Notes under the pieces: generated by a model
Database searches by the model: none
What the model saw: the letters and a program-made list of their open reading frames with translations, nothing else
Told to the model about the DNA's origin: nothing
Assembly: GCA_002842345.1 (NCBI GenBank)
Contig: PHCU01000004.1
Coordinates: forward strand, 1-64,000
DNA: 64,000 bases
Source of the DNA: Betaproteobacteria bacterium HGW-Betaproteobacteria-12
GTDB lineage: Bacteria > Pseudomonadota > Gammaproteobacteria > Burkholderiales > Rhodocyclaceae
Reading direction: 5' to 3'
Translations under genes and position numbers: made by a program
Shown here: piece after piece, positions 3,508 through 56,016 of the stretch
Layout of the letters: each line of letters begins with the position of its first letter
Position numbering within the stretch: position 1 is the first letter of the stretch

Positions 3508-3553
3508 GTTACCCTCTCCCCCAGCCCCTCTCCCGCATGCGGGAGAGGGGAGC
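3508..3553. repeat. CCCTCTCCC-type palindromic repeat between azlC and azlD
   Basis: accctctcccccagcccctctcccgcatgcgggagaggggag. Confidence 0.85.
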
Positions 3554-3587
3554 GCCCAGAGTCGCTGGCGCGACTGATTGAACAATC

Positions 3588-3908
3588 ATGGCCGAAATCG
3601 CGATCTGGGGCGTGATCGCCACGCTCGGGCTGGCGACCTTCGCCACCCGATTGTCCTTCCTGGCGCTGCTGGGGGAGGGAGAACTGCCGCTGTGGCTGCG
3701 GCGCGTCCTGCACTACGTGCCGCCGGCCATCCTGGCCGCCATCATCGCGCCGCAGCTTCTTTCAGGTGCGGCGGGTCTGGACGCCACTTTCGACGGACCG
3801 CGTTGCGCGGCCGCTCTGGCCGGCTTCGCCATCGCCTACTTCACGCGCAGCACCTTCGCCACCATCGCGGTCGGCATGGCCGTGCTGTGGGGGCTGACTT
3901 TGCTGTAG
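3588..3908 (+). CDS. azlD: AzlD domain-containing membrane protein
   Basis: Small hydrophobic protein (ATFATRLSFLALLGEGELPLWLRRVLHYVPPAILAAIIAPQLL) next to azlC. Confidence 0.85.
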   Translation: MAEIAIWGVIATLGLATFATRLSFLALLGEGELPLWLRRVLHYVPPAILAAIIAPQLLSGAAGLDATFDGPRCAAALAGFAIAYFTRSTFATIAVGMAVLWGLTLL

Positions 3909-3985
3909 GTCGGGCTTCACGCCAAAGTCGGGCTGAAGCCCGACCTACAAATCTGCCGCTGCCGGACTGAAGCCCGGCGTACGGT
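3905..3985. repeat. GTAGGTCGGGCTTCAGCCCGAC-type repeats
   Basis: gtaggtcgggcttcacgccaaagtcgggctgaagcccgacctac...ggactgaagcccggcgta; related copies near 42697. Confidence 0.7.
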
Positions 3986-4219
3986 TTAATGATAGACCGC
4001 AGGCTGGGTGATCAGAGAACCATACTCCTCGAGCAGGTCGCCATAGGCCTCCATGTCGGGGTCGCCCGAAACCAGCGCCTTCAACTCGGCGCGGAAACGA
4101 TCCGCCGCCCCGTCCCGCATGAGGACGCCCTTGTTGACACGCTTGTCGATCACCTCCACGGCATCCTGCGCCGGATAATCGACGACATGCATTACCGGAT
4201 TATCGAAGACGATCATCAT
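3986..4219 (-). CDS. DUF3567-like small protein
   Basis: 77 aa, MMIVFDNPVMHVVDYPAQDAVEVIDKRVNKGVLMRDGAADRFRAEL...LITQPAVYH; resembles betaproteobacterial DUF3567. Confidence 0.6.
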   Translation of the reverse strand: MMIVFDNPVMHVVDYPAQDAVEVIDKRVNKGVLMRDGAADRFRAELKALVSGDPDMEAYGDLLEEYGSLITQPAVYH

Positions 4220-4317
4220 GGTTGTTACCTCCGTATCTAGTATGTGGGCTTGCCCGCACGCATTTCAACCCTGTGCTTCATGTTGTCTTTCCCTGGCCTG
4301 CCGCATACCATAGCCGC

Positions 4318-4527
4318 ATGGCAGAATCCGACGACATCGCCTCCCTGCGCCTGCGCCTGCACGATTTTCAGGTCGAACACCGCGACCTGGACGAAATCAT
4401 CGAACGCCTGATGCAGACGCCTCCGCTCGACGACCTGATGCTGCGCCGGCTGAAAAAACGCAAACTGCTGCTGAAAGACCGCATCGCCATCCTCGAACGC
4501 ATGATCGAACCCGACATTCCGGCCTGA
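4318..4527 (+). CDS. YdcH/DUF465 family protein
   Basis: MAESDDIASLRLRLHDFQVEHRDLDEIIERL...LMLRRLKKRKLLLKDRIAILERM; typical DUF465 layout. Confidence 0.8.
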   Translation: MAESDDIASLRLRLHDFQVEHRDLDEIIERLMQTPPLDDLMLRRLKKRKLLLKDRIAILERMIEPDIPA

Positions 4528-4634
4528 GCGCCATCTGCCGGGCCGACCCAAAGATGGCGCAGCCAACACCAAGGAGCCGCGCTGCGGCGAACAATCGTCA
4601 CTCCCTTCCTCGGGAAGGGGGGCGGGAGAAAGGT
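4525..4634. repeat. long dispersed intergenic repeat, copy A
   Basis: tgagcgccatctgccgggccgacccaaagatggcgcagccaacaccaaggagccgcgctgcggcgaacaatcgtcactccctt...; aligns by eye with 34307-34418. Confidence 0.8.
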
Positions 4635-4639
4635 ACTCA

Positions 4640-5935
4640 ATGAGCAAGACCAGCGCTTTCAATTTCGACACCCTGAGCCTGCACGCCGGCCAGCAACCCG
4701 ACCCGCAATACGGCGCCCGCGCCGCGCCCATCTACCTCACAACCTCCTTCGTCTTCAAGGACACCGACCAGGCCGCCGCGCTCTTCAACATGGAGCGTGC
4801 CGGCCACGTCTATTCGCGCATCTCCAACCCGACCAATGCCGTGCTGGAGGAGCGCATCGCCGCGCTTGAAGGCGGCGTCGGCGCCATCGCCGCCGCCTCG
4901 GGCCAGGCGGCGCTGCACCTGGCCATCTGCACCCTGATGGGCGCCGGCAGCCACATCGTCGCCTCGCGCTCGCTCTACGGCGGCTCGCACAACCTGCTCG
5001 AATACACCCTGCCGCGCTTCGGCGTCGCCACCACCTTCGTCGATCCGCGCGACCTCGACGCCTGGCGCGCCGCCCTCCGCCCCGAAACCCGCCTGCTCTT
5101 CGGCGAAACGCTGGGCAACCCCGGCCTGGACGTGCTCGACGTGCCGCGCGTGGCCGAGATCGCCCACGCCGCCGGCCTGCCGCTGATGGTGGATTCCACC
5201 TTTACCACGCCCTTTCTCATGCGACCCTTCGACCTCGGCGCCGACCTGCTCTTCCATTCGGCGACCAAGTTCCTCGGCGGGCACGGCGTCGCCATCGGCG
5301 GCCTGCTGGTGGACTCCGGCAAATTCGACTGGGAAAGCTCGGGGAAATTCCCCACCCTGACCGAGCCTTACGCGGGCTTCCACGGCATGGACTTCGCCGA
5401 GGAGTCGACCGTCGCCGCCTTCCTGCTGCGGGCGCGGCGCGAGGGCCTGCGCGACTTCGGCGCCTGCATGAGTCCGATGACCGCCTTCCAGATACTGCAG
5501 GGCATGGAAACGCTGCCGCTGCGCATGCAGCGCCACATCGACAACACGCGCAGGATCGTCGCGCATCTCGCCGCACACGCCACGGTGGAATCGGTGTCCT
5601 ATCCGGAACTGGAGAACCATCCCGACCACGCCCTGGCGAAAACGCTGCTGCCGAAGGGCTGCGGCGCGGTATTCAGCTTCGTCCTGAAAGGCGGCCGGGC
5701 CGCGGGGCGCAAGTTCATCGAGAACCTGCGCGTCTTCTCGCACCTGGCCAACGTCGGCGATGCCAAGTCGCTGGTCATCCACCCGGCGAGCACCACGCAT
5801 TTCCGCATGTCCGACGAGGCCCTGCGCGCCTCCGGCATCCACGAGGGCACGGTGCGCCTGTCGATCGGACTGGAGGATGCGGACGATCTCATCGCGGACC
5901 TCGACAGCGGCCTGCGCGCCGCACAGAAGGCTTGA
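4640..5935 (+). CDS. metY: O-acetylhomoserine aminocarboxypropyltransferase / sulfhydrylase
   Basis: Cys/Met metabolism PLP enzyme; TLSLHAGQQPDP, HSATKFLGGHGVAIGG, 431 aa typical of MetY. Confidence 0.88.
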   Translation: MSKTSAFNFDTLSLHAGQQPDPQYGARAAPIYLTTSFVFKDTDQAAALFNMERAGHVYSRISNPTNAVLEERIAALEGGVGAIAAASGQAALHLAICTLMGAGSHIVASRSLYGGSHNLLEYTLPRFGVATTFVDPRDLDAWRAALRPETRLLFGETLGNPGLDVLDVPRVAEIAHAAGLPLMVDSTFTTPFLMRPFDLGADLLFHSATKFLGGHGVAIGGLLVDSGKFDWESSGKFPTLTEPYAGFHGMDFAEESTVAAFLLRARREGLRDFGACMSPMTAFQILQGMETLPLRMQRHIDNTRRIVAHLAAHATVESVSYPELENHPDHALAKTLLPKGCGAVFSFVLKGGRAAGRKFIENLRVFSHLANVGDAKSLVIHPASTTHFRMSDEALRASGIHEGTVRLSIGLEDADDLIADLDSGLRAAQKA

Positions 5936-5937
5936 AC

Positions 5938-6735
5938 ATGGAACTCACCGTCAATGGCGCCGCCACCTACGCCTACACCGGCGGCAAGCCCTTCAACCCG
6001 GAACTGCCGACCATCGTCTTCATCCACGGCGCCGAGAACGACCACAGCGTATGGGGCCTGCAAAGCCGCTGGTTCGCCCACCACGGCTGCGGCGTGCTGG
6101 CGGTCGACCTGCCCGGCCATGGCCGTTCCGACGGGCCGCTGCTGCCCACCGTCGAGGCGCAGGCCGAGTGGCTCGTCGCCCTGCTCGATGCCGCTGGCGT
6201 GGAAGACGCCGCGCTGGTCGGCCACAGCATGGGTTCGCTCATCGCGCTCGAAGCCGCGTCGCGCTTTCCGGAGCGGGTGTCGAGCATCGTCCTCGTCGGC
6301 ACCGCCGTGCCGATGCCCGTTTCCGAGGCGCTGCTCACCGCCGCGCGCGATGCGCGGCCCAAGGCCGACGGGATGGTCAACGTCTGGTCGCATGGCGCGC
6401 GCGGCGCCATCGGCGGCAACACCGTGCCCGGCATGTGGATGATGGGCGCCAGCCTGCGCCTGATGGAGCGCGCCGCCCCGGGCGTGCTGCACAACGATCT
6501 GCACGCCTGCAACGCCTATGCGCGCGGCCCGGAAGCCGCCGCCGCGGCGCAATGCCCGGCGCTGCTCGTCGTCGGCAGCCGCGACATGATGACCAGCCCG
6601 CGCGGCGCGCCCAAGCTGGCGGCGGCGATGAAGGATGCCCGCATCGCCCCCATCGAAGGCAGCGGCCATGCCCTCATGGCGGAATACCCCGATGCGGTGC
6701 TCGATGCGCTGCGCGGCTTCCTGATTGCCGCCTGA
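5938..6735 (+). CDS. alpha/beta hydrolase
   Basis: VFIHGAENDHSVW and nucleophile elbow GHSMGS; ATG at 5938. Confidence 0.9.
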   Translation: MELTVNGAATYAYTGGKPFNPELPTIVFIHGAENDHSVWGLQSRWFAHHGCGVLAVDLPGHGRSDGPLLPTVEAQAEWLVALLDAAGVEDAALVGHSMGSLIALEAASRFPERVSSIVLVGTAVPMPVSEALLTAARDARPKADGMVNVWSHGARGAIGGNTVPGMWMMGASLRLMERAAPGVLHNDLHACNAYARGPEAAAAAQCPALLVVGSRDMMTSPRGAPKLAAAMKDARIAPIEGSGHALMAEYPDAVLDALRGFLIAA

Positions 6736-6753
6736 GCAGCGGCGGTTCCCGGC

Positions 6754-8415
6754 TCAGGCGCGTGAGCGGTCCGACACGACCCTGATGTTTCGCGAAGAGG
6801 GCCTTGGCCCGCTCTTCGCATCAGTCCGGGTAAATGTCTCGACCCGGTTGCGGCCCGTATCCTTGGCAAGGTAGAGCGCCTGATCGGCCTTGGCGAAGAG
6901 CGTCTCCAGGTTGTCGCCTTTCGCGAACTCGGCGACGCCGAAACTCACGGTGAACCTCGGCAAGTCCTTCGCGTGGAATGTCTCGAACAACAGGCGCAGC
7001 TTTTCGGCGAGCCGGGCGGCTTCCTCGGCCGAGGTTTCCGGCGTCAGGATGATGAATTCCTCGCCCCCCCAGCGGGCGAAGATGTCCGTCCCGCGCATGT
7101 TGTCGCGAATCAGGCAGGCCAGTTCGATAAGCACCCGGTCGCCAACCGCATGCCCATGGCTGTCGTTGATCCGCTTGAAATGGTCTACGTCCGCGATGAT
7201 CATGGACAGCTTGCGATGGTAGCGCAGCGCACGCTGCAGTTCGCCCCCGGCGAGTTCGTGAAAGCCATGGCGGTTCAAAGCCCCGGTGAGGGCATCGGTC
7301 GACGCCTTGATGTTGAGGCTGTCAACCATGTCGAGCAACTGATTGAAGCTTTGCGCGATATCGATCGGCTCATCGCGCATCCCCTTCACCCCGCGCTCCC
7401 ACTCCTGCTTGCCCGCAGCCCGGCGCGCTCCCCGCAGGACGCTTTCGAACGCCCGCATGAGGAGCAGCAACGAGGAGATGGCGAGCCAGGTCAGGAGGAC
7501 TGATATGAGGAGCAGCCCGCCTCGCTGCAGCAGGATTTCCGCGCGGACCTTGTCGTGGATTGCCTGCGTCTGGTCGATCAATTCGATCAGGGAATAGCGT
7601 TCGACCTCGCGCAGCAGGTTGATCGCTTCCGTCACGATCCCGTACCAGCGCGTTCGCGGCATGCTGATCGGGTCGATGGCGCGGCCATCCCTGGCCGCTC
7701 GCAAGAGCCGCATCGACGACTGCATCGCCGGCTCGCCAAGCGCCCCCGTCAGCGTGGCCCGCATGGATGGACTGGATTCCTTGAGGAAGCGCTGGATGCC
7801 GGCTTCGAACAGGCCAAAGCGGCTGCCCATCGCCGCGTGCCAGGCGGGGTCGGGCCTGCCCTTGCCGGGCATAGCCAGCACGGTGGCGCGGGCCTGGCCA
7901 AGATACTCCTTGGCGCGGACCAGATGCACGAGGGCGATCAGGTCATGCTGTGCGGGATGCCCGTTCGCAGCGAGGCTCAGTCTGTCCATTTGCTCGAAAA
8001 TGCCGTTCAGGCTGAGCGTGTAGAAATCGAAGGATTCCCGTTCTTCGACCGCAGTCTGGTCCACCTTCTCCCGCATCGCCCCCAGGCCTGGCAGCAAGGC
8101 AGGCTCCTGAGCTGAATCCACCTGCGACAATCTGAAATCCGTCGCAATGCGTTGCGCAGACATTTCCTTGCGGGCGTTGCCCCCCGCGTCGGCAAGAAAG
8201 GCGGATGACAGGCCCCGCTCCTTCTGCACTTCATGAACGAGGCGTGCCATGCGCTCCGCCTGCGCTAGCTGATCCAGCATGGTGCGATGGCTTGTCAGTT
8301 CCTTGCCGGAGAGCTGATACTGGAGGCCAAAAACCAATAGCAGGCTGCCCAGAAACAACAGTCCGAGAAGCCAAATTCTTGTTTTGATGCTGATTTTAAG
8401 ATCCATACGAGCCAC
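6754..8415 (-). CDS. GGDEF diguanylate cyclase with N-terminal NIT (nitrate/nitrite-sensing-type) domain
   Basis: RWGGEEFIIL active site; N-terminal QKERGLSSAFLADAGG resembles NIT domains. Confidence 0.88.
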   Translation of the reverse strand: MARMDLKISIKTRIWLLGLLFLGSLLLVFGLQYQLSGKELTSHRTMLDQLAQAERMARLVHEVQKERGLSSAFLADAGGNARKEMSAQRIATDFRLSQVDSAQEPALLPGLGAMREKVDQTAVEERESFDFYTLSLNGIFEQMDRLSLAANGHPAQHDLIALVHLVRAKEYLGQARATVLAMPGKGRPDPAWHAAMGSRFGLFEAGIQRFLKESSPSMRATLTGALGEPAMQSSMRLLRAARDGRAIDPISMPRTRWYGIVTEAINLLREVERYSLIELIDQTQAIHDKVRAEILLQRGGLLLISVLLTWLAISSLLLLMRAFESVLRGARRAAGKQEWERGVKGMRDEPIDIAQSFNQLLDMVDSLNIKASTDALTGALNRHGFHELAGGELQRALRYHRKLSMIIADVDHFKRINDSHGHAVGDRVLIELACLIRDNMRGTDIFARWGGEEFIILTPETSAEEAARLAEKLRLLFETFHAKDLPRFTVSFGVAEFAKGDNLETLFAKADQALYLAKDTGRNRVETFTRTDAKSGPRPSSRNIRVVSDRSRA

Positions 8416-8513
8416 GCAGCCACTGATGCCCGATTTACGGCCAATAGCTGTATTTCTTTAGGAAAAACAATCTATAAGGCAATAAAAGCTCGAAACGGGC
8501 ATAATCTGACGAC

Positions 8514-9698
8514 ATGAACACTACTTCCGCTGGAACCTCCCGCACCGTCCGCCGCATCGTTCTGGCTGTTCTGATCTTGTCGCTTGTCGCAGGCGTCATC
8601 TGGTGGGCCACCCGACCCAAGCCGATTGCCGTCGTCGTGAGGGCGGTTGAGGTCGGCCGCGTCGAAACCACGGTCGCCAACACCCGCGCCGGCTCCGTCG
8701 CCGCCTGCCGCCGCGCCAAGCTGGCGCCGCCGCTGGGCGGCCGCATCGAAAAGCTGCATGTGCGCGAGGGCGACCGCGTCAAGGCCGGACAACTGCTCGT
8801 CGAACTGTGGAACGACGACCTCGCCGCGCGCGAGCGCATCTCGCGCGAGCAGCGCGCCACCGCCCTAGCGCACGTGCGTGAAGCCTGCCTGCTGGCCGAC
8901 ACGGCCACGCGCGAGGCGGCCCGCAGCCGCGCCCTGCGCGACAAGGGTTTTGTCTCCGAGGGCCAGGTCGACCGTGCCGAAAGCGAGGCCAAGGCGAAAC
9001 AGGCCGGCTGCGACTCTGCACGCGCCCAGGTACAGGAGGCCAACGCGCGCATCGGCGCCTCGCGCGCCGACACGGCGCGCTCAGTCGTGCGCGCCCCCTT
9101 CGACGGCATCGTCGCCGAGGTCAACGGCGAGGTGGGCGAATACCTCACGCCCTCGCCGCCGGGCATCATGACCCTGCCGGCAGTAGACCTCATCGACGAT
9201 TCCTGCCTCTACGTCACCGCGCCCATCGACGAAGTAGACGCCGCCCGCCTGAAGGTGGGGCTGAGCGGCCGCATCACGCTGGACGCCTACCGCGACAGGC
9301 ATTTCAGCGGCAAGGTGCGACGCATCGCGCCGTATGTCCTGGCGCTGGAGAAGCAGGCGCGCACGGTCGAGGTGGAAGTCGAGTTCGACAACCCGGGCGA
9401 CATCCGCCACCTGCTGGTGGGCTACAGCGCAGACATCGAGGTGGTGGTGGACACGCGCGACAACGTCCTGCGCATCCCGACCACCGCGCTCATGCCCGGC
9501 AGCCGCGTGCTGGTGCTGACCGAAGAGGGCATGCTCGAGGAAAGAAAAATCGAGACCGGCCTGACCAACTGGGAATTCACCGAGGCGAAATCCGGCATCG
9601 AACGCGGCGCGCGTGTCGTCACTTCGCTCGAGCGCGCCGGCGTCAAGGCGGGCGTGCGTGCCGTGGCCGAGGAAAAGCCGGAAACCAAGAAACCATGA
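8514..9698 (+). CDS. efflux periplasmic adaptor (HlyD/MacA-like)
   Basis: Membrane-fusion protein layout (LAPPLGGRIEKLHVREGDRVKAGQLL...VVRAPFDGIVAEVNGEVGEYL) upstream of ABC genes. Confidence 0.9.
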   Translation: MNTTSAGTSRTVRRIVLAVLILSLVAGVIWWATRPKPIAVVVRAVEVGRVETTVANTRAGSVAACRRAKLAPPLGGRIEKLHVREGDRVKAGQLLVELWNDDLAARERISREQRATALAHVREACLLADTATREAARSRALRDKGFVSEGQVDRAESEAKAKQAGCDSARAQVQEANARIGASRADTARSVVRAPFDGIVAEVNGEVGEYLTPSPPGIMTLPAVDLIDDSCLYVTAPIDEVDAARLKVGLSGRITLDAYRDRHFSGKVRRIAPYVLALEKQARTVEVEVEFDNPGDIRHLLVGYSADIEVVVDTRDNVLRIPTTALMPGSRVLVLTEEGMLEERKIETGLTNWEFTEAKSGIERGARVVTSLERAGVKAGVRAVAEEKPETKKP

Positions 9699-9716
9699 GC
9701 GGCGCGGGCCCTTGCC

Positions 9717-9785
9717 GTCATTCCCGCGAAAGCGGGAATCCAGCGGCTTTGGATCGACAATGGATTCCCGCTTTCGCGGGAATGG
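9717..9785. repeat. dRS3-like ATTCCCGCGAAAGCGGGAAT inverted repeat
   Basis: gtcattcccgcgaaagcgggaatccag...atggattcccgctttcgcgggaatg; similar copy at 57845. Confidence 0.85.
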
Positions 9786-9798
9786 CGGTCCTCGGCAA

Positions 9799-10473
9799 AT
9801 GATCAGCCTCACCGGCATCGAACGGGTCTTCCGCGTCGGCGACGAAGAGGTGCACGCGCTGCGCGGCGTCAGCCTGGACATCGAGCAGGGCGAGTACCTC
9901 TCCATCATGGGCCCGTCGGGCTCGGGCAAGTCCACCCTGCTCAACATCCTCGGCCTGCTCGACCGGCCGAACGCCGGCCGCTACGAACTGAACGGCCACG
10001 ACGTCACCGGCCTGCCCGACGACGAGTTGGCACGGGTGCGCCGGGAGAACATCGGTTTCGTCTTCCAGTTCTTCCACCTCGTGCCGCGGCTCACCGCCGG
10101 GCAGAACATCGAGCTGCCGATGGTGCTGGCCGGCATCGCCCCGGCGGAGCGGCGGCGGCGCCTCGACAAGCTGCTCGCCGCCTACGGCCTGGAAGCGCGC
10201 GCCGGCCACCGCCCCGACCAGCTCTCCGGCGGCCAGTGCCAGCGCGTCGCCATCGCCCGCGCCATGTCGATGGGCCCGACGCTGATCCTCGCCGACGAGC
10301 CGACCGGCAACCTCGACCGCCATACCGGGCAGGAGGTCATGGCAGTGCTCGAACAGGTGCATCACGACGGTGGCACCCTGGCGGTCGTCACCCACGACCC
10401 GGAGATCGGTGCGCGTGCGCACCGCCGCATCCGTCTCGTCGACGGCGAAGTCGTCGAGGATTTCCGGGAATGA
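9799..10473 (+). CDS. ABC transporter ATP-binding protein (MacB/LolD type)
   Basis: Walker [18 protein letters not shown] signature, [13 protein letters not shown] at 9799. Confidence 0.95.
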
Positions 10474-10487
10474 TCATCGCCCTTTCC

Positions 10488-10618
10488 CCCTCTCCCCAAC
10501 CCTCTCCCCGCTGGGGAGAGGTGGCCGTCTTCCTCCCCTCTTCCCGGCGGGGAGAAGGCGCCGTCTTCCTCCCCTCTCCCGCTTGCGGGAGAGGGGTCGG
10601 GGGAGAGGGTGGCTCTTA
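10488..10618. repeat. cluster of CCCTCTCCC-type palindromic repeats
   Basis: ccctctccccaaccctctccccgctggggagagg...cccctctcccgcttgcgggagaggggtcgggggagaggg. Confidence 0.88.
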
Positions 10619-10621
10619 ATC

Positions 10622-11830
10622 ATGCGCTTCGCTGACCTCCTCCGCTTCGCCTGGCAGGTGCTGGGCGGCTACCGCGCCCGCACGGCGCTGATCCTGCTCG
10701 CCATGGGCATCGGCGTCGCCGCAGTGGTGGCGGTGAGCTCCATCGGCGAGGGAGCGCGCCTCTACGTCGTCAACCAGTTCGGCTCGCTCGGCACCAACCT
10801 GATCATCGTCCTGCCCGGCCGCTCCGAGACGGCCGGCGCCATGCCCGGCGTGCTGATCGGCAAGACGCCGCGCGACCTCACCATCGACGATGCCCTGGCG
10901 CTCAAGCGCAGCCCGGCCATCCTGCGCTTCGCCCCGCTCATCGTCGGCGCCGGCGACGTGCGCGTCGGCAGCCGCAGCCGCGAGACGCCGGTGCTCGGCA
11001 CCACCGCCGAATTCATCCAGGTGCGCCAGATGGACATGGCACACGGCCTGTTCCTGCCGCCGGGCGATCCGCGCCACGGCCAGCCGGTATGCGTCATCGG
11101 CGCGAAGGTGGCCAGCGAGCTGTTCGGCGCGCGCCCGGCGCTGGGCGAGTGGCTGCGCATCGGCGACCGCCGCTTCCGCATCGTCGGCGTGCTCGCCAAG
11201 CAGGGCCAGTCGCTCGGCTTCAACACCGACGAGATCGTCGTCATCCCGCTCGCCGCGGCGCAGGCCCTCTTCAACACGGAGGCGCTGTTCCGCGTCCTCG
11301 TCGAGGCGAAGAGCCGCGAGCAGATTCCCCTGGCCAAGGCCGACGTCGAGGAGATCATCCGACTGCGCCACGAGGGCGAGCGCGACGTCACGGTGATCAC
11401 CCAGGACGCCGTGCTGGAGACCTTCGACCGCATCCTGCGCGCGCTGACGCTGGCCGTCGGCGGCATCGCCGCCATCAGCCTCGCCGTGGCCGGCATCCTC
11501 ATCATGAACGTCATGCTCATCGCCGTAACGCAGCGGCGGCGCGAGATCGGCCTGCTCAAGGCGTTGGGCGCCACCGGCGCGCAGATCCGCGCCGCTTTCT
11601 TCACCGAGGCGGCGATGCTGGCGCTGGGCGGCGCCGCGCTCGGCCTGATCGTCGGCAAGCTGGGCCAGGTCGCCATCGGCCAGGCCTTCCCGGACATCCC
11701 CTTCACGGCGCCCTGGTGGGCGGTAATCGCCGCTCCGCTCACCGCCATCGTCACCTCGGTGCTGTTCACCGTGGTGCCGGCCCGGCGCGCGGCGCAGCTC
11801 GATCCCATCCAGGCGCTGTCCAAGCGATGA
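10622..11830 (+). CDS. ABC transporter permease (MacB/FtsX family), first copy
   Basis: ARTALILLAMGIGVAAVVAVSSIGEGARLYV and C-terminal FtsX TM block RRREIGLLKALGAT. Confidence 0.92.
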   Translation: MRFADLLRFAWQVLGGYRARTALILLAMGIGVAAVVAVSSIGEGARLYVVNQFGSLGTNLIIVLPGRSETAGAMPGVLIGKTPRDLTIDDALALKRSPAILRFAPLIVGAGDVRVGSRSRETPVLGTTAEFIQVRQMDMAHGLFLPPGDPRHGQPVCVIGAKVASELFGARPALGEWLRIGDRRFRIVGVLAKQGQSLGFNTDEIVVIPLAAAQALFNTEALFRVLVEAKSREQIPLAKADVEEIIRLRHEGERDVTVITQDAVLETFDRILRALTLAVGGIAAISLAVAGILIMNVMLIAVTQRRREIGLLKALGATGAQIRAAFFTEAAMLALGGAALGLIVGKLGQVAIGQAFPDIPFTAPWWAVIAAPLTAIVTSVLFTVVPARRAAQLDPIQALSKR

Positions 11831-12387
11831 GGAAAAGCAGCCCCTCTCCCCAGCCCTCTCCCCGCAAGCGGGGAGAGGGAGTAAACACCCCTCTCCCGCA
11901 CGCGGGAGAGGGGAAGGGGGAGAGGGTACTGCTGCAAAACGCCAAATCACTCCGCAGCAACCAGACCGACGCCGAACAGAAGCTCTGGTACCACCTGCGC
12001 GCCCACCGCTTCATGGGGCTGAAATTCAAGCGACAGAAGCCAATTGGCCGCTACATTGCCGACTTCATCTGCGTCGAACAAAAACTGATCGTCGAACTGG
12101 ATGGCGGACAGCATGCCGACCAGACAGCCTACGACACGGAGCGTGACGGCTGGCTGCGCGGTGAGGGCTATACGGTGCTGCGGTTCTGGAACAACGAGGT
12201 GATGCAGGGAATGGAGGGGGTGCTGGAGAGGATTCGGCTTACCCTCTCCCCCGACCCCTCTCCCGCGAGCGGGAGAGGGGAGCAAGACAACCCCCTCGCC
12301 CCGCTTGCGGGGAGGGGGCTGGGGAGAGGGGAGCAGGACAACCCCCTCGCCCCGCTTGCGGGGAGAGGGCTGGGGAGAGGGGAATGA
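11827..12387 (+). CDS. DUF559 (Vsr-like) endonuclease domain protein; ends of the ORF lie in palindromic repeats
   Basis: LRSNQTDAEQKLWYHLRAHRFMGLKFKRQKPIGRYIADFICVEQKLIVELDGGQHADQTAYDTERDGWLRGEGYTVLRFWNNEV is a typical DUF559 core; true start uncertain. Confidence 0.85.
   Translation: MRKSSPSPQPSPRKRGEGVNTPLPHAGEGKGERVLLQNAKSLRSNQTDAEQKLWYHLRAHRFMGLKFKRQKPIGRYIADFICVEQKLIVELDGGQHADQTAYDTERDGWLRGEGYTVLRFWNNEVMQGMEGVLERIRLTLSPDPSPASGRGEQDNPLAPLAGRGLGRGEQDNPLAPLAGRGLGRGE
11840..11931. repeat. CCCTCTCCC-type palindromic repeat, 5' side of DUF559 gene
   Basis: cccctctccccagccctctccccgcaagcggggagaggga...cccctctcccgcacgcgggagaggggaagggggagaggg. Confidence 0.88.
12238..12384. repeat. CCCTCTCCC-type palindromic repeats with tandem partial copies, 3' side of DUF559 gene
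   Basis: accctctcccccgacccctctcccgcgagcgggagagggg followed by two near-identical gagca(a/g)gacaaccccctcgccccgcttgcggggag.gggctggggagagggg units. Confidence 0.88.
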
Positions 12388-13583
12388 TCACCACCGACTT
12401 CATCGCCTTCACCCTCGCCTCGCTCAAGGCGCACCGCCTGCGCACGGTGCTCACGGCGCTGGGCATCGCCGTGGGCATCGCCTCGGTGATCCTGCTCACT
12501 TCCATCGGCGAGGGCCTGCACCGCTTCGTCATTGCCGAGTTCACCCAGTTCGGCACCAACATCATCGGCATCTCGCCCGGCCGCACCCAGACGCATGGCG
12601 GCGCCCTCGGCGCAGTGAACACCGTGCGCCCGCTTTCCATCGACGACGCTGTGGCCTTGCGCCGCGCGCCGTATGTCCTGCTCTCCGTTCCTGTCGTGCA
12701 GGGCAACGCCGAAGTCGTGCATGCGGGCAAAAGCCGCCGCGTCACCCTTTATGGCACCGGGCCGGATTTCTCCAAAGCGTTCACCATGCGCGTGGCCAGC
12801 GGCGAATTCCTGCCCCACGACGACGTGCATGCGGCACGCGCCTTCGTCGTGCTCGGCTCCAAGGTCGCACGCGAACTGTTCGGCGACGACAACCCGCTCG
12901 GCAGCCGCATCCGCGTCGGCGGCGAGCGCTACCGCGTCGTCGGCGTCATGGAATCCAAGGGGCAGGTGCTCGGCTTCGACCTCGACGACACGGTCTACAT
13001 CCCGGTGGCGCGCGCGCTCGACATGTTCAACCGCGAGAGCCTGATGGAGATCGACGTCATCTATGAACCGACGGCGCCATTGGCCGAAGTGGAGGAAGGC
13101 CTGCGCAGCATCCTCGTCGCGCGCCATGGCGCCGAGGACTTCACCATCACCCCGCAGCAGAAGATGCTGGAGGTGTTCGGCACGGTGCTCGATGCCATCA
13201 CCTTCGCCGTGGCGGCCATCGGCGGCATCTCGCTGGTGGTGGGCGGCGTCGGCATCCTCACCATCCTCACCATCGGCGTGGCCGAGCGCACCTCCGAGAT
13301 CGGCCTGCTGCGCGCCATCGGCGCGACACGAAAACGCATCCTGCTGCTCTTCCTCGGCGAGGCCGCGCTGCTCTCCGCCCTCGGCGGCGCGGCCGGCCTG
13401 CTGCTGGGCTGGAGCATCGCCGTCCTGCTGACGCTGACTTTCCCGGCGCTGCCGGTGCACACGCCCTGGCTGTATGCCGTGCTGGCCGAAGGGGTCGCCA
13501 TCGGCGTGGGGCTGGCCGCCGGTGTTGTGCCCGCGCGCCGCGCCGCGCGCCTCGATCCGCTCGAAGCGCTGCGCAGCGAATGA
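12384..13583 (+). CDS. ABC transporter permease (MacB/FtsX family), second copy
   Basis: HRLRTVLTALGIAVGIASVILLTSIGEGL and RTSEIGLLRAIGAT. Confidence 0.92.
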   Translation: MITTDFIAFTLASLKAHRLRTVLTALGIAVGIASVILLTSIGEGLHRFVIAEFTQFGTNIIGISPGRTQTHGGALGAVNTVRPLSIDDAVALRRAPYVLLSVPVVQGNAEVVHAGKSRRVTLYGTGPDFSKAFTMRVASGEFLPHDDVHAARAFVVLGSKVARELFGDDNPLGSRIRVGGERYRVVGVMESKGQVLGFDLDDTVYIPVARALDMFNRESLMEIDVIYEPTAPLAEVEEGLRSILVARHGAEDFTITPQQKMLEVFGTVLDAITFAVAAIGGISLVVGGVGILTILTIGVAERTSEIGLLRAIGATRKRILLLFLGEAALLSALGGAAGLLLGWSIAVLLTLTFPALPVHTPWLYAVLAEGVAIGVGLAAGVVPARRAARLDPLEALRSE

Positions 13584-13590
13584 GGCTTCC

Positions 13591-13684
13591 CCGTGGGAGC
13601 GGCGTCCACGCCGCGATATCAGCGGCTGCACCCCAAGGGTGTTTCCTGCGAGGCATTATCGCGGCGTGGACGCCGCTCCCACGG
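13591..13684. repeat. GTGGGAGCGGCGTCCACGCCGCGATA palindromic repeat
   Basis: gtgggagcggcgtccacgccgcgatatc...attatcgcggcgtggacgccgctcccac. Confidence 0.88.
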
Positions 13685-13692
13685 GCATTCCC

Positions 13693-14916
13693 ATGACAGT
13701 CATCCAGCCGCTCGATCCGCTGCGCGAACGCGCCTTGCTGCTGATGCTGGCCGGCATCCAGTTCGCGCACATCCTCGATTTCATGATCATGATGCCGCTC
13801 GGGCCGATCCTGGTGCGCGCGTTCGGCATCGGCACGCACGAATTCGGTCTGCTCGTCTCGGCGTATACCTTCAGCGGTGCCGCCACCGGCCTGCTGGCGG
13901 CCACTTTCGTCGACCGCTTCGAGAGGAAGCGCCTGCTGCTGGGCATGTTCGCCCTCTTCACGCTGGCCACGCTGGCCTGCGGCCTGGCGCCGAGCTTCGG
14001 CCTCCTGATGCTGGCGCGCTGCGCCGCCGGCGCCTTCGGCGGCGTGCTCGGCTCGATGGTGCAGACCATGGTCGGCGACCTGATTCCCTTCGAGCGCCGC
14101 GGCCGCGCCAGCGGCACCATCATGTCGGCCTTCGCCCTGTCGACCGTTGCCGGCGTGCCGCTCTCGCTGGTGCTCGCCAACCACTTCGGCTGGCGCGCGC
14201 CCTTCATCTTCATCGCCGCCCTCGCCACCGGCCTGCTCGTGCTCGGCTGGAAGATGCTGCCCACGCTGCGCGGGCACCTGCGTTCCGCCGTCATCGGCGA
14301 AACGGAGCGCGCCCATCCCCTCGCCGCGATGGGGGAAGTGCTGCGCGACGCCAACCACCTGCGCGCGCTCGGCTTCATGGCGCTGATCATGTTCTCCGGC
14401 TTCACCGTGATTCCCTACATCACCCTCTACTCGGTAGCCAACGTCGGCATCCGCCAGGAGGATCTCTACCTGATCTATCTCGCCGGCGGCTGCGCCACCT
14501 TCTTCACTTCGCGACTGATCGGGCGGCTGGCGGACCGCCACGGCAAGGTGCGCGTCTACCGCATCGTCGCGTTCTGCTCCATGGTGCCGCTGATCATCCA
14601 GACGCATCTCGTTCCGGTGCCGCTGTGGCTGATGATCGTCGTCTCGACCCTCTTCTTCATCTTCGTGCCGGGCCGCATGGTGCCGGCCATGGCCATCGTC
14701 ACCTCGGCGGTGCAGTCGCGGCTGCGCGGCACCTTCCTCTCGATAAGCGGCGCCACCCAGCAGCTGGCCTCCGGCGCGGCCTCCTTCGTCGGCGGCCTCA
14801 TCATCGCGCAGGACGCGGCGGGGCACATCGTGCGCTATGACTGGGTGGGCTGGCTCGCCGTCGCCGCCACCCTGCTGGCGATGGCGCTTGCCAGCCGCAT
14901 CCGGTTTCGTGCCTGA
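13693..14916 (+). CDS. MFS transporter
   Basis: 12-TM MFS protein (FAHILDFMIMMPLGPILVRAFGI...FVDRFERKRLLL); ATG at 13693. Confidence 0.9.
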   Translation: MTVIQPLDPLRERALLLMLAGIQFAHILDFMIMMPLGPILVRAFGIGTHEFGLLVSAYTFSGAATGLLAATFVDRFERKRLLLGMFALFTLATLACGLAPSFGLLMLARCAAGAFGGVLGSMVQTMVGDLIPFERRGRASGTIMSAFALSTVAGVPLSLVLANHFGWRAPFIFIAALATGLLVLGWKMLPTLRGHLRSAVIGETERAHPLAAMGEVLRDANHLRALGFMALIMFSGFTVIPYITLYSVANVGIRQEDLYLIYLAGGCATFFTSRLIGRLADRHGKVRVYRIVAFCSMVPLIIQTHLVPVPLWLMIVVSTLFFIFVPGRMVPAMAIVTSAVQSRLRGTFLSISGATQQLASGAASFVGGLIIAQDAAGHIVRYDWVGWLAVAATLLAMALASRIRFRA

Positions 14917-14968
14917 AGACTGGGGAACCCAGTCCGAAGAAGTACTCTTGGGGTGTGCCTGAACGCGC

Positions 14969-15062
14969 CCCCTCTCCCCAACCCTCTCCCCCGGTGCCGG
15001 GGGAGAGGGAGTCGATGTACTCCCCTCTCCCGCTTGTGGGAGAGGGGCCGGGGGAGAGGGTT
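14969..15062. repeat. CCCTCTCCC-type palindromic repeat
   Basis: cccctctccccaaccctctcccccggtgccgggggagaggga...cccctctcccgcttgtgggagaggggccgggggagaggg. Confidence 0.88.
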
Positions 15063-15155
15063 GCGGGAGTTGTCATGAGCGCCGCCCCCGGCTAGAATCG
15101 TTTCATATATAAAGAAACGCGGCTCACCGCGTGCCCACCCCGCAGAGGAGGAGAA

Positions 15156-15926
15156 ATGGCATCACAGATGACCGAGGTCGAGCCGCGCCGGGACTTCCCG
15201 AAAATCCGCGACGTGCCGATGGAACAGCCGCTGAAATGGCTCAAGCTCGGCTGGGGCGACCTGATCTCCTGCCCCACCGCCAGCCTGTTCTACGGCTTCT
15301 GCTTCGTCGCCGGCGGCGCGCTGATGGTGCTGGCGCTCGGCGGCGCGCCCGAGTACATCGCCGCCGTCACCTCGGGCTTCCTCATCCTCGGCCCCTTCTT
15401 CGCCATCGGCCTCTACGAGATCAGCCGCCGGCACGAAAAGCAGCAGCCCTGCAGCCTCATGCCCACGCTCATGGCATGGAAGGGCAATGCCGGCAACCTG
15501 GGCATCTTCACGGCTGTCCTGCTGGTCATCTTCCTGGTCTGGGCGCGCGCCTCGATGGTCGCCTTCGCCCTCTTCTACTCGGGCGAGATGCCGAGCATGA
15601 GCGGCTTCCTGCGGCATGTCATTTCCACCGACCACATCGGCTTCCTGCTGGCCTATTTCGCCATCGGCGGCATTTTTTCCCTGATCGCCTTCTCCATCAG
15701 CCTGATCACCATCCCGCTCATGCTCGACCGCAACCTCGACGCCATCACCGCCGCCATCACCAGCGTGCGTGCCCTCTTCGCCAACCCGGCCGCCATGTTC
15801 GTCTGGGCCGGCCTCATCGCGCTGCTCGGCGGCCTCGGCCTCGTCACCTTCCTCGCCGGCATGCTCATCGCCGGCCCCATCCTTGGCCACGCCACCTGGC
15901 ACGCCTATCGCGACCTCATCGAATAG
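15156..15926 (+). CDS. DUF2189 domain-containing membrane protein
   Basis: MEQPLKWLKLGWGDLISCPTASLFYGFCFVAGGALM; multi-TM, DUF2189-like. Confidence 0.8.
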   Translation: MASQMTEVEPRRDFPKIRDVPMEQPLKWLKLGWGDLISCPTASLFYGFCFVAGGALMVLALGGAPEYIAAVTSGFLILGPFFAIGLYEISRRHEKQQPCSLMPTLMAWKGNAGNLGIFTAVLLVIFLVWARASMVAFALFYSGEMPSMSGFLRHVISTDHIGFLLAYFAIGGIFSLIAFSISLITIPLMLDRNLDAITAAITSVRALFANPAAMFVWAGLIALLGGLGLVTFLAGMLIAGPILGHATWHAYRDLIE

Positions 15927-15935
15927 AATGGTTGG

Positions 15936-17105
15936 ATGAATCCCGCCCATCGCGCCGTCGGCCTCCTTGCCGCCTGCCAGGCGCTGCTGCTCACCAACGG
16001 CGTCACCCTCGTTGCCATCAATGCCCTGGCCGGTTTCGCGCTGGCGCCGGACAAGCGGCTGGCCACGCTGCCTGTCGTCGGTTACGTGCTCGGCTCGGCG
16101 GTGTCGACCCTGCCCGCCTCGCACTTCATGCGCCGGCATGGCCGCCGCGCCGGCTTCCTGCTCGGCACCTTCTGCGGCATGCTCGGCGGCGCCATCGGTG
16201 CGGCGGCGATCCTCCTGCAGAGCTTCTGGCTGCTCTGCGCGGCCACCTTCTGCTCGGGCATCTACCAGGCCTTCGGCCAGTACCTGCGCTTCGCCGCGGC
16301 GGAAGTGGCGCCGGCCGACTGGAAAAGCCGCGCCATCTCGCTGACGCTGGCCGGCGGCATCCTCGGCGGTTTCATCGGCCCGGCCGTCGGCAAATGGACG
16401 CGCGACCTGGCGCAGCCGCAGTACATCGCCTCGTATGCCTCGCTCATCGGCTTCGCCCTCGTCGCCATGATGATCGCCGCCAGCCTGCGCTTCCCGCCGC
16501 AAAGTCAGGCCGAGCAGCACGGCGGCGGCCGGCCGCTGAAAGAGATTGCGCGCCAGCCCGTCTTCATCGTCGCCGCGCTGGCCGCCGCCGCCGGCTACGG
16601 CGTCATGAATTTGCTGATGAACGCCACGCCGCTGGCGATGGACTTCTGCGGCCTCGGCTTCGGCGACACCGCCTTCGTCCTGCAGTGGCACGTCATCGGC
16701 ATGTTCGCGCCGAGCTTCTTCACCGGCCACCTCATTGCCCGCTTCGGCGTGCTCAACGTCCTCTTCGCCGGCGCCGTGCTGATGTTCGCCTGCATCGGCA
16801 TCGCCGTGCAGGGGATCACGCTGATGCACTTCTGGTGGGCGCTGCTGCTGCTCGGCGTCGGCTGGAACTTCCTCTACATCGGCGGCACGACGCTGCTCAC
16901 CGAGGCCTACACGCCGGCGGAGAAAGCCAAGACGCAGGGCCTCAACGACTTCCTCATGTTCTTCGCCATGGCCGGCTCCTCCTTCGCCTCCGGCGTCGTC
17001 GTCACCAGCGCCGGCTGGAGCGTGCTCAACCAGATCGCCATCCCCTTCGTCGCCCTGACCGCGCTGGGCAGCGCCATCCTCTGGATGAAGCGCCGCGCCA
17101 ATTAA
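15936..17105 (+). CDS. MFS transporter
   Basis: Multi-TM MFS-type protein (LPVVGYVLGSAVSTLPASHFMRRHGRRAGFLLG). Confidence 0.87.
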   Translation: MNPAHRAVGLLAACQALLLTNGVTLVAINALAGFALAPDKRLATLPVVGYVLGSAVSTLPASHFMRRHGRRAGFLLGTFCGMLGGAIGAAAILLQSFWLLCAATFCSGIYQAFGQYLRFAAAEVAPADWKSRAISLTLAGGILGGFIGPAVGKWTRDLAQPQYIASYASLIGFALVAMMIAASLRFPPQSQAEQHGGGRPLKEIARQPVFIVAALAAAAGYGVMNLLMNATPLAMDFCGLGFGDTAFVLQWHVIGMFAPSFFTGHLIARFGVLNVLFAGAVLMFACIGIAVQGITLMHFWWALLLLGVGWNFLYIGGTTLLTEAYTPAEKAKTQGLNDFLMFFAMAGSSFASGVVVTSAGWSVLNQIAIPFVALTALGSAILWMKRRAN

Positions 17106-17151
17106 CCCCCCTCTCCCCGGAATCGGGGAGAGGGCCGGGGTGAGGGGCAAC
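17105..17151. repeat. CCCTCTCCC-type palindromic repeat
   Basis: ccccctctccccggaatcggggagagggccggggtgagggg directly after the MFS stop. Confidence 0.8.
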
Positions 17152-21639: not shown

Positions 21640-21676
21640 ATCCCCCTTCCGTCCCCCTTTTCCAAAGGGGGAGACC
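21640..21676. repeat. CCCCCTTTTCCAAAGGGGG-type repeat
   Basis: aaatcccccttccgtcccccttttccaaagggggaga between lpdA and zapE. Confidence 0.8.
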
Positions 21677-23203: not shown

Positions 23204-24463
<1,260 letters not shown>

Positions 24464-52465: not shown

Positions 52466-52524
52466 CTAGGGCGTGTTCTCAATCATTCTGTTGGTGCGAC
52501 AGAATGATTGAGAACACGCCCTAG
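52466..52524. mobile_element. perfect 26-bp inverted repeat with 7-nt loop, MITE-like
   Basis: ctagggcgtgttctcaatcattctgt-tggtgcg-acagaatgattgagaacacgccctag; arm resembles the right end of 45037-45161. Confidence 0.7.
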
Positions 52525-55921: not shown

Positions 55922-56016
55922 TTGTGGGAGCGGCGTCCACGCCGCGATAAATCCCCCGGCCCTGCGGGCCACCCCCTTTTGCAAAGGGGGTTCGCGGCGT
56001 GGACGCCGCTCCTACA
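55922..56016. repeat. nested repeat: CCCCCTTTTGCAAAGGGGG unit inside a GTGGGAGCGGCGTCCACGCCGCGATA palindrome
   Basis: gtgggagcggcgtccacgccgcgataaatcccccggccctgcgggccacccccttttgcaaagggggttcgcggcgtggacgccgctcctac. Confidence 0.85.

Follow-up and report, generated by a model that had tools for sequence, protein, structure and literature searches.

E. coli has been known to carry BoxC/PIT repeats since the 1990s. The E. coli motif forms an intrastrand triplex in vitro and is present in 23 copies in E. coli MG1655, with related motifs in more than 260 genomes; genomic instability is raised at BoxC/PIT sites, and no mobility activities were found near the E. coli copies (PMC4666352). In the RAYT/REP/REPIN systems (REPtrons), short hairpins, each beside a conserved motif, bracket a nuclease gene; these systems also show inverted doublets, dispersed non-autonomous copies, and co-variation of enzyme and repeat (PMC3116915, PMC8266576). 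The DUF559 gene described here, located in a window of 64,000 nucleotides (the whole stretch of DNA that was analysed), resembles RAYT/REP/REPIN in each of these respects. The original prediction had drawn this analogy, which stands for the architecture, a gene between inverted hairpins of a dispersed family, and fails for the enzyme, the tag, and the association with Y1 transposases. DUF559 is of the PD-(D/E)XK type, whereas RAYT is an HUH Y1 enzyme, and no HUH Y1 domain was found in DUF559. In contrast to REP, the GTAG/CGTC tag beside the hairpin is missing, and the DUF559 repeats have a C-rich triplex foot. The likeness to BoxC/PIT/TM elements (PMC4666352) extends to the foot, linker, hairpin, inverted doublets, and linker types, and E. 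coli copies lie beside the DUF559 gene ycjD. The difference is that BoxC/PIT had previously been linked to no gene.

Among nucleases, Vsr is related to DUF559 in fold, but Vsr genes are without flanking palindromes. Caulobacter VsrA is itself a DUF559 protein and has the same active-site positions (PMC12907096). I-Bth0305I (PDB 3r3p) has the same fold by Foldseek; in contrast, no intron or fixed recognition site was seen for DUF559 units, which sit in intergenic gaps. ISL3 insertion sequences and MITEs also have inverted ends round a gene, and an ISL3-type element carries DUF559 in one genome (G084), whereas the other loci inspected have no ISL3 ends and their palindromes are different sequences. 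No link of DUF559 to BoxC/PIT or REP was found in the openly available journal papers that were searched. As far as this literature shows, the new part is the link between two known orphans, DUF559 and BoxC/PIT.

The DUF559 locus and its repeats in the window

The genes and repeat elements of the window are as follows.

11827..12387, + strand: DUF559 ORF, 186 aa, both ends of which are translated repeat (ORF list, Pfam)
11932..12246, + strand: DUF559 core with PD-(D/E)XK/Vsr-like fold (Pfam, AlphaFold2/Foldseek, residue conservation)
10370..11830, + strand: upstream MacB/FtsX permease gene, longest ORF; the real start is probably near 10619-10631
12384..13583, + strand: downstream MacB/FtsX permease gene
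11842..11879, + strand: BoxC/PIT-type element, foot 11842-11850, hairpin 11854-11879
11888..11926, - strand: BoxC/PIT-type element at the gene start, hairpin 11888-11913, foot 11918-11926 facing the gene
12242..12280, + strand: BoxC/PIT-type element at the gene end, foot 12242-12250 facing the gene, hairpin 12255-12280
12271..12381, - strand: two tandem hairpin-foot copies, the product of a 51-bp direct duplication
3512..3550, + strand: single BoxC/PIT-type element, foot 3512-3520, hairpin 3525-3550
10488..10609, no strand: inverted doublet with feet outside, hairpins 10501-10521 and 10571-10596
14970..15060, no strand: inverted doublet with feet outside, hairpins 14982-15009 and 15022-15047
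17109..17147, - strand: single element, hairpin 17109-17134 followed by foot GGGTGAGGGG

Pfam and the ORFs confirm the predicted position of the DUF559 core between two MacB-like permease genes. The repeat DNA at both ends of the ORF is likewise present, as is the ATGA overlap, in which ATG 11827 of the DUF559 ORF overlaps the TGA of the upstream permease. PF04480 matches amino acids 36-140 of the ORF (E 6e-45, 152 bits, curated cut-off 20.6); the Vsr profile (PF03852) gave no match to it, and the only other hit was a sub-threshold match to PF18741. The start codon of the gene is uncertain because its homologue in genome G010 carries a TTG immediately past the repeat, and the repeat-encoded N-terminus may perhaps be untranslated. 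DUF559 is single-copy in the window's assembly.

All repeat elements of the window share an anatomy of C-rich foot, short linker, and the hairpin CCC(C)TCTCCC(C)-loop-(G)GGGAGAGGG(G). Around the gene they are ordered as foot-hairpin, hairpin-foot, GENE, foot-hairpin, hairpin-foot, hairpin-foot, with the gene-adjoining feet facing the gene. The two halves of the direct duplication (12271-12321 and 12322-12372) are 96% identical. CCCTCTCCC occurs 28 times in the window against a chance expectation of 0.67, and all occurrences are inside 3512-17134. The earlier statement that the palindromes lie within about 9 kb of the gene is true of the window and is not general; a 9-kb halo finds no support as a rule, hairpin density at 127 DUF559 loci being flat beyond 500 bp. 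An Rfam search of the window gave no match. The window also contains hairpins of the CCCCCTTT/AAAGGGGG type at 21652-21672, 23987-24007, and 55971-55991, like the elements beside DUF559 in G124 and G073, and a perfect inverted repeat with 26-bp arms, CTAGGGCGTGTTCTCAATCATTCTGT, at 52466-52524.

The contig of the window (C10) probably comes from outside its assembly's genus, by contamination or transfer, as judged by sequence comparison. Its permease 2 is 90%, 86%, and 77% identical to those of G121, G010, and G073, which belong to another genus, versus 56-57% for the nominal genus, whose own permease 2 orthologue is located on contig C261. These three genomes also align with the window's first 18 kb, mostly at 82-91% nucleotide identity, and the assembly has 6.9% contamination. 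Eight of the nine palindromes of the assembly lie on this stretch, and because the contig looks foreign, assembly-wide palindrome clustering was dropped as evidence.

Association of DUF559 genes with oriented palindromes

The sample of DUF559 genes comprised 127 loci, 47 from the window's bacterial family and 80 from diverse bacteria in a species-level genome collection. Perfect-hairpin density within 200 bp is 4.2/kb at the family loci and 4.5/kb at the 80 further loci, and it falls to 0.1-0.2/kb beyond 500 bp in both sets. The original prediction, which depended on enrichment of the repeats near DUF559 genes across genomes, survives on this point, with a density beside the 127 genes about 30-fold over background. 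By record titles, the 80 loci include Pseudomonadota, Desulfobacterota-type, Chloroflexi, Nitrospirae, and Planctomycetota, together with Omnitrophota, Melainabacteria, FCPU426, and Wirthbacteria, and the pairing of DUF559 with palindromes spans at least nine bacterial phyla. Flanking sequence was sufficient at 119 loci, and in 98 of these the upstream and downstream sides match in inverted orientation beyond the 95% level of same-locus controls 3 kb distant. When imperfect hairpins are allowed, an element lies within ~160 bp of 115 of the 127 genes, and 86 have elements on both sides.

These elements are oriented: of 201, 189 turn a pyrimidine-rich arm towards the gene and 2 a purine-rich one (189:2). 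Gene-facing elements within ~160 bp occur at 112 of the 127 DUF559 genes on any side and at 77 on both, compared with 76 and 3, respectively, of 1356 control ORFs in these loci. The query DUF559 lies inside 47 of the 53 feet-in brackets of 150-1500 bp, and a second DUF559 lies inside one of the remaining six. The control ORFs (3/1356 bracketed) and the bracket contents reject the explanation that palindromes flank any gene. Generic intrinsic terminators are also rejected, as the hairpins occur on both sides of the gene, are oriented and clade-specific, and are lacking at Vsr genes; none of 28 Vsr loci had a perfect hairpin within 500 bp. Repeats of other types accompany other DUF559 genes, for example CCCATCCCCACCCCAG-CCCTCCCCTTGAAGGGGAGGG.

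Several loci have further peculiarities. An extra inner hairpin between the foot and the main hairpin is seen in L133, L161, L165, L170, L180, and L183, which are mostly from Alphaproteobacteria. L192 (N. gonorrhoeae) has near-identical tandem units with CCTCTCTCCCTGTGGGAGAGAG and CCCTCTCCCCAGCCCTCCCCCACAGGGGAGGG 3' of the DUF559 gene, and L116 has a second DUF559 gene in feet-in elements at 15173-15557, less than 6 kb from the first.

At the genome level, palindromes were counted by pattern search, with one repeat type (CCCTCTCCC) scored. Among 151 genomes of the family, at least two palindromes are present in 28 of 41 genomes with full-length DUF559 versus 13 of 110 without (p 3e-11). Among 299 genomes of the phylum, the corresponding figures are 68 of 84 and 16 of 215 (odds ratio 53, p 5.5e-36), and the association persists when stratified by taxonomic family (odds ratio 50, p 1.4e-11; permutation p 5e-5). 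DUF559 genomes make up 28% of the 299 and contain 3213 of the 3546 CCCTCTCCC palindromes (91%). Palindromes of the scored type, one among the types that exist, are missing from 11 of the 84 DUF559 genomes of the phylum and from 10 of the 41 of the family, while G380, G204, G107, and G147 are palindrome-rich (129, 57, 32, and 28) with no DUF559 detected. Y1 transposases have no significant association with the palindromes in the 151 family genomes (p 0.10), and Y1/RAYT was rejected on this ground as their hidden partner; the window's assembly has no Y1 transposase.

Nuclease clade and repeat sequence were also expected to co-vary, and this was borne out. Upstream and downstream elements of the same gene share 72% identity, and elements of different loci 53% (p 5e-4). 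Over 112 loci, element identity correlates with protein identity (Mantel r 0.32, p<5e-4), climbing from 0.48 to 0.76 across protein identity classes. This co-variation partly reflects shared descent and is not proof of recognition.

The repeats fit BoxC/PIT/TM elements in their anatomy, inverted doublets, and linker types. The positional consensus comprises a C-rich foot and a CAA/CAG/TAA/CGG linker. The foot matches the arm at 147 of 201 gene-proximal sides versus 35 of 201 outer sides, and the mirror match exceeds the direct one, as required for a triplex. E. coli ycjD, a DUF559 gene between sapF and fabI (L194 2908-3261), runs at its 3' end into a BoxC-like element, and a complete one lies downstream. 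Sequences similar to the 48-mer downstream of ycjD number 19 per E. coli genome (median), and nearly all E. coli keep ~19 copies although only 3364 of 5426 complete genomes contain at least 80% of the ycjD-region query. BoxC was described near envM/fabI, and on this location and the anatomy the ycjD-adjacent repeat is probably BoxC itself. Both the match to known BoxC/PIT triplex elements and the case of E. coli ycjD go beyond the original prediction. E. coli strains without ycjD are unusable as empty sites because their neighbouring genes differ. Four PLSDB entries (NZ_CP119142, NZ_CP119140, NZ_CP141089, and NZ_OL790696) are chromosome-sized N. gonorrhoeae or E. coli records filed as plasmids.

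Insertion sites and alternative explanations

Empty-site alleles, which had been proposed as a check in close relatives, exist at two operon junctions, and the original prediction survives on this count too; the BoxC/PIT element is absent from the empty sites at both. At the permease junction, the whole unit is present in the window and in G010, G121 has an unrelated palindromic element, and G073 is empty, with the two genes overlapping and reading ...AAGCGATGATCGTC.... At the hypD-hypE junction, G010 has hairpin-foot-DUF559-foot-hairpin, G121 has yet another repeat, and G073, G023, G053, and G003 are empty. As a candidate target-site duplication, a 4-bp ATGA is found on both sides of the permease insertion, possibly selected as stop/start codons; it is not seen at hypD-hypE. 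Neither G073 nor G121 has a hairpin corresponding to the window elements at 3512, 10488-10609, 14970-15060, and 17109. In G010, an element pair occupies a junction that carries a different palindrome in the window. At window ~9700-9780 and at the L101 and L233 junctions, the palindromic family at one and the same operon junction differs among relatives (GTCATTCCCGCGAAAGCGGGAATCC type; CCACAGAGAACACAGAG type), and these intergenic gaps are therefore shared landing places for unrelated repeats. Insertion sites that are shared by different genera suggest vertical residence, not frequent movement.

DUF559 could be a passenger between two copies of a repeat, with BoxC/PIT moved by other machinery, slippage, or recombination, but this is unlikely. 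In its favour, the unit is plainly cargo in G084 (L041, L080-L089, L198), where several near-identical DUF559 units lie within identical 24-bp inverted ends, GGCTCTATGCGGTTTGTAGTGGGT, the same as those of an ISL3-transposase element in that genome. These copies were considered as proof of self-mobility and rejected because an ISL3-type element carries them. Hairpin number varies among them, and this tandem variation, together with the 51-bp duplication of the window, fits repeated breakage at the element and also slippage. Palindromes moreover persist in some genomes without DUF559. However, the cargo of a bracket should vary, yet the brackets almost always hold DUF559 and control genes are unbracketed; the co-occurrence and co-variation would be unexpected for a passenger, and Y1 transposases are not associated. 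Nor does a passenger account for the kept active site and the purifying selection on DUF559. The putative active-site residues of the core, E15, D44, E55, D57, H61, and D68, are 99-100% conserved over 127 sequences, and the gene is under purifying selection, with a dN/dS of 0.114/0.565 = 0.20 between the window's copy and its homologue in G010.

It is similarly doubtful that DUF559 is a Vsr-type mismatch-repair or defence nuclease whose hairpins insulate or regulate a potentially toxic gene. Caulobacter VsrA, a DUF559 protein, causes SOS when the cytosine methyltransferase is absent and was proposed to repair TG mismatches (PMC12907096). The SOS result fits a nuclease and leaves its substrate unfixed. 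Vsr is a fold relative as well; the AlphaFold2 model of the DUF559 protein (mean pLDDT 91) matches 3hrl, which is NGO0050 of N. gonorrhoeae, a DUF559-like protein and solved homologue, then the I-Bth0305I catalytic domain (3r3p), and more weakly Vsr (1vsr). On the other hand, true Vsr genes are without such hairpins, insulators would be neither genome-dispersed in gene-tracking numbers nor symmetrically oriented, and PADLOC found only a weak match of DUF559 to DpdF.

Still less likely is a homing-endonuclease-like gene that inserts into pre-existing BoxC/PIT copies, the repeats being its targets and not its own ends: the nearest solved structure beyond the family belongs to the homing endonuclease I-Bth0305I and the gene is always amid repeats, but its units are found at two unrelated gene junctions, the empty sites in relatives lack the element, and insertion between doublet hairpins is excluded as a common route because the feet face the gene (189:2) while close doublets are mostly feet-out (37 feet-out vs 17 feet-in pairs).

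DUF559 as a candidate nuclease of BoxC/PIT repeats

The explanation that we favour, with moderate confidence, is that DUF559 acts as cognate nuclease on the triplex-forming BoxC/PIT palindromes. Its observed basis is the pairing, with the order hairpin-foot-GENE-foot-hairpin in the majority of lineages covered, the polarity, the co-occurrence, the co-variation, the selection on the nuclease, and the presence or absence of the unit as a whole. Against it stand the exceptions in both directions among the genomes, the ~19 copies kept by nearly all E. coli, the insertion sites shared by genera, the ISL3 origin of the single multi-copy case, and the share of common descent in the co-variation. The Vsr/homing-endonuclease-like DUF559 would recognise the foot and the hairpin, probably folded as a hairpin or triplex in transiently single-stranded DNA, and would nick or cut beside the element. 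Repair or copying of the cut ends could then spread doublets as non-autonomous elements and yield tandem copies beside the gene, and the gene with its flanking elements might occasionally be moved into gaps between genes. By analogy, DUF559 would fill the role ascribed to RAYT transposases for REP/REPIN, as an unrelated enzyme. More tentatively, these could be pan-bacterial selfish or domesticated systems whose PD-(D/E)XK-type nuclease would recognise a triplex or hairpin and spread copies of it genome-wide; this would explain the origin of BoxC/PIT and provide the first enzyme known to act on intrastrand triplex repeats.

DUF559 is the first candidate enzyme for the spread or maintenance of BoxC/PIT. 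It is in turn a very common domain, and the link gives both it and BoxC/PIT concrete hypotheses that are testable in laboratory E. coli K-12, which has ycjD and BoxC. If true, partnerships of the RAYT/REP kind between nuclease and palindrome have at least two origins, in unrelated enzymes.
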